A DNA stretch of 64,000 bases, from NCBI RefSeq assembly GCF_023156245.1, contig NZ_JAKZAH010000008.1, forward strand, positions 1 through 64,000, written 5' to 3'. The notes under the pieces were generated by a model. The model ran no database searches. It saw only the letters and a list, made by a program, of their open reading frames with translations, and was not told the origin of the DNA. A program made the translations under genes and the position numbers. Source of the stretch: Marinobacter bryozoorum (lineage in GTDB: Bacteria; Pseudomonadota; Gammaproteobacteria; Pseudomonadales; Oleiphilaceae). Of this stretch, positions 25,705 to 28,841 are shown piece after piece; the stretch's first letter is position 1; each line of letters begins with the position of its first letter.

Positions 25705-26571
25705 TTGCAAACAGTCAGTACTCCGGCTCCCGCGACCGGCACGCTTTTTATCGTGGCCACGCCGATAGGCAACCTTGACGACTTGTCCCGGAGGGCTGAG
25801 AAGGTGCTGGCCTCGGTGGACCTGGTAGCGGCGGAGGATACGCGCCACAGTGGCCGATTACTCCAGCACCTGGGCCTCAACAAGGCGATGTGGCCGCTCC
25901 ATGATCACAACGAGCGGGAGCGTTCCGGCGCCTTGCTGGACCGGATAGCCGGCGGTGAGTCGGTCGCGCTGGTCTCTGATGCCGGGACCCCGCTGATTTC
26001 CGATCCGGGCTATGTACTTGTGCGAGCAGCCCGGCAGCGAGGCATCCGTGTTGTGCCCGTTCCGGGGGCCTGTGCCATGGTGGCCGCCCTCAGTGCCGCC
26101 GGCCTGCCCACTGACCGCTTCCTGTTCGCAGGCTTCTTGCCGGTGAAAACCGTGGCCCGGAGCAAGGTGCTTGAGTCCCTTTCCCGGGAGGAGTCGACGC
26201 TGGTGTTCTATGAGTCCCCTCGTCGGGTGGTGGCCCTGCTTGAGGATATTTGCAATACCTTGGGAGAGGGCAGGGAGGTGGTGCTGGCCCGGGAGCTCAC
26301 CAAGGCCTTCGAAACCTGGTATTCCGGTTCTGTAACCGATGTGGTTGACGCGCTCCGGGCTGACGCGCATTCCGGCAAGGGCGAATACGTGGTCATGGTT
26401 GGTGGCTCACCCTCTGCAGGTCAGGCGCGGGTTGCTGTGGATGCTGACCGGGTGCTGTCGCTGCTGGTGCCGGAGCTGCCCCTGAAGAAAGCGGTTAAGG
26501 TGGCAGCGGAGCTGACCGGGGTTCCCCGCAACGAGCTATACCAGCGGGCCCTCGAGCTGAAAGATCAGTAA
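25705..26571 (+). CDS. rsmI: 16S rRNA (cytidine(1402)-2'-O)-methyltransferase RsmI
   Basis: SAM-dependent methyltransferase of the tetrapyrrole-methylase fold, 288 residues. Conserved TLFIVATPIGNLDDLSRRA, AAEDTRHSGRLLQHLG and VSDAGTPLISDPGY. The start is uncertain: the frame opens with an ATG at 25639, but TTG at 25705 has GGGGA upstream and gives the N-terminal length seen in E. coli. Divergent from lpoA, the usual arrangement. Confidence 0.93.
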   Translation: MQTVSTPAPATGTLFIVATPIGNLDDLSRRAEKVLASVDLVAAEDTRHSGRLLQHLGLNKAMWPLHDHNERERSGALLDRIAGGESVALVSDAGTPLISDPGYVLVRAARQRGIRVVPVPGACAMVAALSAAGLPTDRFLFAGFLPVKTVARSKVLESLSREESTLVFYESPRRVVALLEDICNTLGEGREVVLARELTKAFETWYSGSVTDVVDALRADAHSGKGEYVVMVGGSPSAGQARVAVDADRVLSLLVPELPLKKAVKVAAELTGVPRNELYQRALELKDQ

Positions 26572-26626
26572 GTGAAGCCCCTGGCTGAACATTGCATGTG
26601 CGTCATCGGGCGGGCCCAGAATTTCC

Positions 26627-26655
26627 TTGCGCCAGCCGGGGTGCGCAGGTATTGT
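26627..26655 (+). promoter_or_regulatory. rnpB promoter
   Basis: TTGCGC (26627-26632) and TATTGT (26650-26655) with a 17-bp spacer, ending seven bases before the predicted 5' end of the RNase P RNA. Confidence 0.75.
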
Positions 26656-26661
26656 CTCGCC

Positions 26662-27012
<351 letters not shown>

Positions 27013-27253
27013 TTCCTTTCCCTGGTTTCCGGCCTGTCCGCCTGCCAGGGCAGCATTCTGTGAAATGAGCAGTTTCACAACCGTCTTTGTTATAGCAAAA
27101 AAATCTTAGACCTCGCACATTTCCTTCGAAACATTTTGCAGGCTTTTGATTTGCTGGAATTTCTTGCTGACTTCTGTGTTCCGGCCTCCGTTTCTTTCAT
27201 CTAACTCATTGTCATTAAAGAAACTTTTGTAATGTTCGCGCCCCTTCTGGTGC
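27013..27253. other. Gap between rnpB and the mraZ promoter
   Basis: About 240 bp, AT-rich, with no supportable gene. One perfect inverted repeat TGTGAAA / TTTCACA (27059-27065, 27073-27079, loop 7) lies about 50 bp after rnpB and could be a protein site or an RNA 3'-end structure. No clear terminator follows rnpB. Confidence 0.45.
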
Positions 27254-27282
27254 TTGCATTGTGATTGGCGTGTTCCTATAGT
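27254..27282 (+). promoter_or_regulatory. Promoter of the mraZ-dcw cluster
   Basis: TTGCAT (27254-27259) and TATAGT (27277-27282) with 17 bp between. The GTGG repeat array begins immediately downstream, so a repressor bound there would block initiation or early elongation. Confidence 0.78.
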
Positions 27283-27356
27283 GTGCAGGAGTGGGAAAAA
27301 GTGGAAATTGGTGGTTTTTAGTGGTTTCTGGGTGGTGTCGAGTGGAAATTGGTGAC
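27281..27356 (+). promoter_or_regulatory. MraZ-box array: GTG(G) repeats at 10-11 bp spacing
   Basis: GTGG occurs at 27291, 27301, 27311, 27321, 27332 and 27342, flanked by weaker GTG copies at 27281 and 27352. Each lies one helical turn from the next. MraZ binds such direct repeats on one DNA face and represses its own operon; most described operators have three or four copies. Six good copies plus two weak ones suggest a large MraZ multimer footprint over the leader. Confidence 0.82.
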
Positions 27357-27408
27357 ACCGAGCCGCCACAAAGAAGAAACACAACAAACAGGGTCTGCGC
27401 TTTCAGCG

Positions 27409-27861
27409 ATGAGCAACTTTCTTGGCAGTCACGCAATCAACATGGACGCAAAGGGTCGCCTGGCGATTCCTGCCCGTGTGCGTGAAGAGTTGCAGGAAGA
27501 GTGCGGCGGACGCATTGTTCTGACCGCCAACGCCGATGAGGAGCGCTGCCTGTTGCTGTATCCGGAGCCGGTTTTCGAAAGCGTACGCACCCAGGTGCTT
27601 GCGCTTCCCAATATGAACAAGAAGGCCCGTCGTCTGCAGCGCCTGATTATCGGGCATGCCACGCAACTGGAGCTGGATTCCGCCGGCCGCATACTTGTGC
27701 CACCCACACTGCGAAGCTATGCCCGCCTGGAGAAGAAGCTGATGCTGATCGGTCAGGGCAAGAAGCTCGAGTTGTGGAGCGAAGAGCGCTGGTTCGCCTT
27801 CCTGGACGAAGATGATGACGACGATGAAATGCCGCCGGAAATGGAGGCCCTGTCACTATGA
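27409..27861 (+). CDS. mraZ: Transcriptional regulator MraZ
   Basis: AbrB-like double swapped-hairpin protein, 150 residues, with two repeats carrying the DNA-binding motif: [20 protein letters not shown] near residues 9-28 and [19 protein letters not shown] in the second half. It represses the dcw operon from the GTGG array just upstream. The ATG at 27409 gives [13 protein letters not shown]; codons further up lie in the operator. The C-terminus is strongly acidic ([12 protein letters not shown]). Overlaps rsmH by four bases. Confidence 0.95.
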
Positions 27862-28841
27862 TGCCGGCTGACTTTTCCAGTGACACGGCAGGCCAGGCAC
27901 TGCACCGTTCGGTGCTGCTGGACCAGGCCGTGGACTTGTTGCTGGTGCGTGGTGATGGGCGCTATGTGGATGGCACCTTTGGAAGGGGTGGGCATAGCCG
28001 CCTGATTCTCCGGCATCTCAGGAAGGAAGGCCGGCTGATCGGCATCGACAAGGACCCGGAGGCGGTCCGGTTCGGAGAAACCCTGGCGGCCGAGGACGGC
28101 CGCTTCGTCGTTTATCACGGCTCATTTGCTGACATGTCTGATGCAGTTGCTGCTCAGGGCTGGGGGACTGTGTCCGGTGTGTTACTGGATCTCGGGGTCT
28201 CCTCGCCCCAGCTTGATGATCCCGGTCGTGGTTTCAGTTTCATGAGCAATGGACCGCTGGACATGAGAATGGATCCGACCCGTGGGCAAAGTGCTGCCCA
28301 GTGGCTGAACTCTGCAGCAGAGAAAGAGATTGCCGATGTCATCTGGCGTTATGGCGAGGAACGTTTCTCGCGCCGCATCGCCCGGGCGGTGATTGCGCAG
28401 CGTGCCGAGGAGCCGCTGGAGACCACCCGCCAGTTCGCCGAACTGGTTCGGCAGTCGGTCCCGAAAAAGGAAAAACACAAGCATCCGGCGACCCGGTCTT
28501 TCCAGGCGGTGCGCATCTTTATCAATCGCGAGCTTGAGGACCTGGAAGCCGGCCTTGAGCAGGCCGTGGACTTGCTGGAGCCGGGCGGCCGGCTGGTTGT
28601 TATCAGCTTTCACTCCCTCGAGGACCGGATTGTCAAAAGGTTTATGAGGGATTTGTCCCGCGGGCCGCAGTTGCCTCGCGGCTTGCCGGTAAAGGCGCAG
28701 GATGTGGAGCCGCCGTTCCGGCTGGTGGGCAAGGCGCTGAAGGCCAGTGACCCGGAGATCGATCAGAACGTCAGGGCCCGGAGCGCCGTTATGCGGGTTC
28801 TTGAACGCCGCACTGACGCCAAAGGAGAAAACGCATCATGA
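27858..28841 (+). CDS. rsmH: 16S rRNA (cytosine(1402)-N4)-methyltransferase RsmH
   Basis: 327 residues, SAM-dependent. Conserved [13 protein letters not shown] near the start, SAM loop [36 protein letters not shown], and the C-terminal [17 protein letters not shown]. It modifies the same nucleotide as RsmI, which is also in this window. ATGATG gives two possible starts three bases apart. Confidence 0.97.

Follow-up and report, generated by a model that had tools for sequence, protein, structure and literature searches.

A candidate extended two-module MraZ operator with all slots filled at the dcw promoter of Marinobacter bryozoorum

To our knowledge, no other regulator of the division and cell-wall (dcw) cluster is as widespread as MraZ. 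In the 64-kb stretch of DNA analysed here, hereafter the window, the mraZ gene is followed by a reading frame that we take, from its sequence and position, to be rsmH/mraW, with more dcw cluster genes presumably after it. On the upstream side lies a bacterial class A RNase P RNA, the gene beyond which is presumably rsmI, and the listed open reading frames that run across this RNA (26536-27078) are spurious. The mraZ product matches PF02381 twice (67.6 and 45.5 bits against a cut-off of 23), matches four distinct PDB MraZ sequences in a phmmer search and has a predicted fold to which solved MraZ is closest, so that a cognate MraZ is encoded in cis. Among its closest named relatives are the proteins of Marinobacter zhanjiangensis (96% identity), M. 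segnicrescens (96%) and M. daqiaonensis (91%). In a further Marinobacter genome (locus L008, G036:C1 near 4218163-4218584) the mraZ frame seems broken, with one internal stop and 64 aa open. The features of the window to which we refer are as follows.

26662-27011, + strand: RNase P class A RNA, bacterial (Rfam RF00010, 339 bits)
27254-27259, + strand: -35 hexamer TTGCAT, a weak match to the consensus that recurs in the genus
27270-27272, + strand: weak GTG in the spacer between the two hexamers, 11 bp before the -10 GTG
27277-27282, + strand: -10 hexamer TATAGT
27281-27284, + strand: slot 0, weak box GTGT, partly within the -10 hexamer
27291-27324, + strand: core of four strong GTGG boxes (27291, 27301, 27311, 27321) at an exact 10-bp pitch
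27325-27331, + strand: hinge, a 7-base spacer giving an 11-bp step from the core to the putative downstream module
27332-27335, + strand: box 5, GTGG, slot +51 from the -10 GTG
27342-27345, + strand: box 6, GTGG, slot +61 from the -10 GTG
27352-27355, + strand: box 7, weak box GTGA, slot +71 from the -10 GTG
27409-27861, + strand: mraZ, 150 aa, ATG at 27409, two PF02381 matches
27858-28841, + strand: presumed rsmH/mraW, the next dcw gene

The -35 hexamer of the mraZ promoter shares three of six letters with the consensus TTGACA (TTGCAT) and is separated from the -10 hexamer by 17 bp, and a consensus promoter scan of 27100-27500 listed no promoter. Both GCATTGT and TATAGTGTG were found repeatedly among Marinobacter mraZ leaders, most of which also retain the spacer GTG at 27270, a possible MraZ contact.

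Six strong GTGG boxes were read from the sequence on the + strand (27291, 27301, 27311, 27321, 27332 and 27342) and, with the weak box at either end, the start-to-start steps are 10, 10, 10, 10, 11, 10 and 10 bp. Counted from the -10 GTG, the offsets are 0 (weak), 10, 20, 30, 40, 51, 61 and 71 (weak). A preliminary description of this DNA had placed eight repeats from 27281 to 27352 with an extra base at the fifth step, and all eight positions and the extra base were borne out. It had also put the array just behind a promoter with 17-bp spacing; the spacing is correct, while the GTG at 27281 lies inside the -10 hexamer. Direct GTG(G) repeats on a 10-bp pitch, here with one step of 11 bp, thus lie between the dcw promoter and mraZ and over the -10/start region, as expected of an MraZ operator, and boxes 5-7 stand 54-77 nt upstream of the ATG. 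The box count of six strong plus two weak exceeds the three or four of described operators, a number which is usual rather than a defining limit, as two of 173 other loci have five. The earlier designation of an expanded MraZ operator is upheld by the position on the mraZ promoter, the GTG core, the 10-bp pitch and the retention of the extra boxes in the nearest relatives.

The + strand of the window contains 562 copies of GTGG, and on both strands of the 64-kb window the array is the only GTGG chain of at least four boxes at 10/11 bp; by our own arithmetic from the window counts, a six-box chain is expected about 1e-6 times. In the whole genome the pattern GTGGN6GTGGN6GTGG has three matches, two of them inside the array and one at C1:218538, and its reversed control has one. 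The sole other exact three-box match (G000:C1:218538-218561) may be a further target of MraZ or a coincidence.

The usual leader of the Marinobacter group carries TATAGTGTGC followed by four GTGG at an exact 10-bp pitch. Four strong boxes were counted in 118 of 149 genus rows, three in 13, six in 15 and five in three; these rows include repeated genomes, the 15 six-box rows being copies of four genomes, and L008 was dropped as it has no start. At the level of genomes, a flexible five-box pattern was found in 5 of 124, one of them with five boxes at 10 bp. The other four, the window's included, have six boxes with the 11-bp step after the fourth, which answers in part the question raised by the preliminary description of whether repeat number holds across relatives: six boxes are conserved in a clade of four species, and in 4/124 genus genomes in all. 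This five-or-more pattern had two flexible gaps, and arrays with an 11-bp step elsewhere would escape it. Among 369 class genomes the same pattern gave three matches including this one, the other two of which sit before mraZ, and the reversed control also gave 3/369; therefore the bare pattern proves little genome-wide. Five contiguous GTGG at an exact 10-bp pitch precede mraZ in L151, L152 and L158 outside Marinobacter, and in L065 within it.

A tree built on roughly 1.9 kb starting at mraZ, with midpoint rooting and with the Hahella row forming a long branch, included 80 Marinobacter-group rows. The four six-box genomes are monophyletic (support 100/100) and nested in a clade of 16 rows (100/99), all of which have a long leader; 63 of the 80 rows have no long leader, and a satellite, i.e., a GTGG past the core, was scored in none of these 63. 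Of 18 distinct long leaders from Marinobacter and its neighbours, 17 carry a GTGG at a distance from box 1 of +50 in nine cases and +51, the position of box 6 in the window, in eight, with L058 as the exception, and the intermediate slot is usually empty in those that do. The slot of box 5 (+41 from box 1) holds no GTGG in the other long leaders read and is filled in the window's clade only. Across the four clade members, no variation was seen in 11/11 core columns of boxes 5-7, against 8/29 of the remaining columns between +45 and +84 (p 3e-5), and the GTG of box 7 is retained by 4/4; as the four are close, common ancestry accounts for part of this invariance. In their spacers, boxes 5-7 are unlike the core.

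The phasing of satellites was followed outside Marinobacter in 173 loci, which remained after removal of Marinobacter rows, duplicate leaders and two loci in which no start was found (L185 and L186). The best 10-bp chain contained three strong boxes in 97 loci, two in 36, four in 28, one in 10 and five in two, and with 97 and 28 loci respectively, three or four repeats are usual, as had been stated beforehand. For the phase count, ten loci that had at most one strong box were removed (n = 163), and sites 20-22, 30-32 and 40-42 bp from the last strong box were taken as in-phase. Past the core, GTGG occupied 74/1042 in-phase sites versus 11/2672 off-phase sites (p 1.6e-30). This clustering was first noticed in L151-L250, and the discovery half gave 28/553 versus 5/1401, while a hold-out of 60 later order loci plus further loci gave 46/489 versus 6/1271 (p 1.9e-20). 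New loci at the phylum level gave 6/165 versus 1/401 (p 0.003), in a check of 21 loci from which L347 and L366 had been dropped for want of a start, L359 and L368 for having less than two boxes, and L348 and L357 because their genomes had served before. Representatives below 60% identity gave 14/221 versus 4/565, again from the last strong box. When sites at least 25 nt before the ATG were considered, the in-phase and off-phase counts were 26/476 and 4/1273 for all loci, 11/248 and 2/647 below 70% identity, 6/114 and 1/295 below 60% identity, and 14/219 and 3/602 in the hold-out. No period was seen in the control words CCAC, GAGG and GCGG, and the phasing is therefore a property of GTGG in its direct orientation; the words GGGG, GGTG and AGTG, which overlap GTGG, show its period, as they must.

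In 118 of the 163 loci the offsets could be anchored on the -10 GTG. In this set GTGG peaks at +10 (115 loci), +20 (111) and +30 (98), is present at +40 in 23 exact copies plus 43 one letter off, and peaks again at +51 (11; +50: 2) and +61 (19; +60: 5, +62: 2), with few at +70 to +73. The extra in-phase boxes of the window at +51, +61 and, weakly, +71 match these peaks. Slot 0 holds a strong or one-off box in 116/118 loci, a figure to be read knowing that the anchoring -10 includes part of slot 0. At least one in-phase satellite was present in 46/118 anchored loci, and the site counts were 52/804 in-phase versus 15/2254 off-phase, the maximum in-phase count of 200 dinucleotide shuffles being 13; for the anchored representatives below 60% identity (n = 26) they were 11/171 versus 4/489, with a shuffle maximum of 6. 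Four contiguous boxes occur in 11 of the anchored loci, seven of which have satellites, at +61 in four and at +72 in three, and none of the 11 has one at +51. What is unusual in the window is that the +51 slot is filled beside a complete four-box core. On the upstream side, 14 of the 118 anchored loci have a GTGG 22 or 21 bp before the -10 GTG.

Satellites and core boxes are alike in their flanks, with an A preferred before GTGG and an A after GTGGGR. Satellites were found in 66 of the 148 loci having room for them, an inflated and biased rate in that the later order loci were chosen among the best hits to the MraZ of the window. Among the 74 in-phase satellites, 41 stand 4-17 nt before the ATG. 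An in-phase GTGG 9-11 nt before the mraZ ATG accounts for 31/74 (e.g., L346 and L353), and leader length looks as if it were quantised, with an MraZ box landing on the ribosome-binding site. A universal +1 hinge was considered and rejected: nine of 17 long leaders stand at exactly +50, and around +40 past the core offset 40 is the commonest (8) and outnumbers offset 41 (4).

We read the window as an extended two-module MraZ operator of the dcw promoter in which all slots are filled and a second octamer binds cooperatively, and we give this reading a probability of about one half. The anatomy, its conservation and the phasing of extra boxes across relatives were observed; we infer binding of MraZ at each box, two octamers, repression and a steeper response. 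Module 1 would comprise the four-box core (27291-27324) together with the weak box of slot 0 and, by analogy with the solved 4-box complex, would take one octamer that covers the -10 and the predicted start site, leading to repression. Repression of this kind would follow the cases of Escherichia coli, whose MraZ represses from the mraZ operator (Eraso 2014, as related in the accessible portions of PMC7761207 and PMC8475190), and Burkholderia cenocepacia, whose MraZ binds a piece of DNA carrying repeated GTG motifs according to the accessible portion of PMC7761207. Module 2 would consist of the boxes at 27332, 27342 and, weakly, 27352, placed 11 bp on and in phase. A second octamer would bind well here only beside the first, would raise the occupancy and cooperativity of auto-repression, and could obstruct the polymerase downstream.

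A rigid row of identical subunits would enforce an exact 10-bp pitch such as that of the core, and the pitch break after the fourth strong box, together with satellites that skip a turn, suggests the boundary of two assemblies on the same helical face. Two assemblies are read more easily from the eight positions because PDB entry 9sz7, a cryo-EM structure from Mycoplasma genitalium, bears the title 'MraZ in complex with 4 box promoter'; we found no paper describing this entry in the literature searched. One octamer per module is favoured on account of the pitch break, the skipped turns and this title. Most second modules would be one box, and a weak octamer site, since two in-phase satellites occur in 8/163 loci only. 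Counting against two modules, the +1 hinge is a tendency and not universal, 63 of 80 Marinobacter-group rows lack the long leader, and some satellites elsewhere may act as Shine-Dalgarno sequences or fall within predicted RNA stems. An 11-bp GTG spacing would be no bar to binding, because M. gallisepticum MraZ, as a single octamer, binds a site with a GTG spacing one base longer (PMC5282649, in the part available).

It could be argued that only the four-box core works and that boxes 5-7 are neutral leftovers from an expansion of the repeat within a single clade, as four strong boxes are the commonest count in the genus (118/149 rows) and the solved complex is by its title a 4-box one (9sz7). 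We consider this unlikely: 11/11 box columns are invariant in the clade, 17/18 long leaders have a satellite in the same slot, in-phase enrichment extends over divergent loci, and boxes 5-7 have spacers that differ from the core's, unlike fresh slippage. The preliminary description had proposed that the array could bind a full MraZ ring and might give the dcw cluster a steep or graded response, and slots 0, 10, 20, 30, 40, 51, 61 and 71 do number eight, as do the subunits of the MraZ octamer (PMC5282649 and PMC7761207, available sections), so that a single octamer might touch all of them with the DNA wrapped round the intact ring. A single ring became less likely, and is in our judgement improbable, given the +1 step, the 4-box complex already solved (9sz7, by title), and the relatives that skip one slot and keep the next, for which a continuous wrap has no simple explanation.

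A role of the downstream GTGG as RNA, in a leader hairpin or a ribosome-binding site, would accord with the predicted pairing of box 5 of the window (probability 0.96), the strong hairpins predicted at the satellite in L084 and L109, and the 41/74 in-phase satellites elsewhere that stand close enough to the ATG (4-17 nt) to be a possible Shine-Dalgarno. However, the folds predicted for 15 leaders, from the four clade members plus 11 relatives, are unalike by eye, no Rfam family covers the array, no terminator-like site was found in 27100-27500, the boxes of the window are 54-77 nt before the ATG, and a period of about 10 bp relative to the core is still seen 25 nt or more from the ATG, on fewer sites. 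The RNA explanation is thereby weakened and we hold it to be very unlikely. Least credible of all is that a regulator other than MraZ uses the downstream boxes, as these equal the core boxes in GTGG core, orientation and phase and have similar flanks.

While this type of operator is already known, we could not find the eight-slot fully occupied form or a phased second module described in the literature searched, which lacked most subscription journals and the two primary operator papers. We tentatively suggest, with somewhat less confidence than for the window itself, that Gammaproteobacterial MraZ operators are commonly bipartite, with a rigid 10-bp core for one octamer and, at least one turn further on and shifted by about one base, satellites that would recruit a second octamer cooperatively, which would make the window the fully occupied form and a two-ring repression switch on the cell-division cluster; on this bipartite reading, the second site of some species may, equally tentatively, reach the ribosome-binding site. 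If a second phased module recurs in many Gammaproteobacteria, the operator has been under-described. Furthermore, the natural variants in box number (3, 4, 5, 4+1 and 4+2) offer material for experiments on how sites are counted by a repressor shaped as a ring and on how the steepness of dcw control is set. The accessible text of PMC8475190 describes little phenotype upon loss of mraZ in E. coli.

The operator of E. coli K-12 (NC_000913.3) resembles the window in having GTGG at an exact 10-bp pitch from promoter to mraZ, but has three strong boxes and a short leader without a satellite GTGG. We know of no second module in the MraZ sites of Mycoplasma. The Mycoplasma site (AAAGTGKN3)3 shares GTG direct repeats, the 10-bp pitch and an octameric MraZ with the window (PMC5282649, as far as its available text goes), whereas this site and the M. 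genitalium complex, by the title of 9sz7, have three to four boxes. A GTG core and 10-bp pitch are indeed how MraZ sites are described in the available text of both PMC7761207 and PMC5282649. In B. cenocepacia, repeated GTG motifs on a 10-nt pitch lie 3' of the -10 element and cover the start site, as in the window; unlike in the window, four repeats are described, and the available portion of the source makes no mention of a downstream module (PMC7761207). The operators of other long-leader Marinobacter and of Tamilnaduibacter, and those of MAGs from Hahella and Oleiphilaceae, share with the window a core plus a GTGG at +50/+51 from box 1, and differ from it in that their +41 slot from box 1 is without GTGG.
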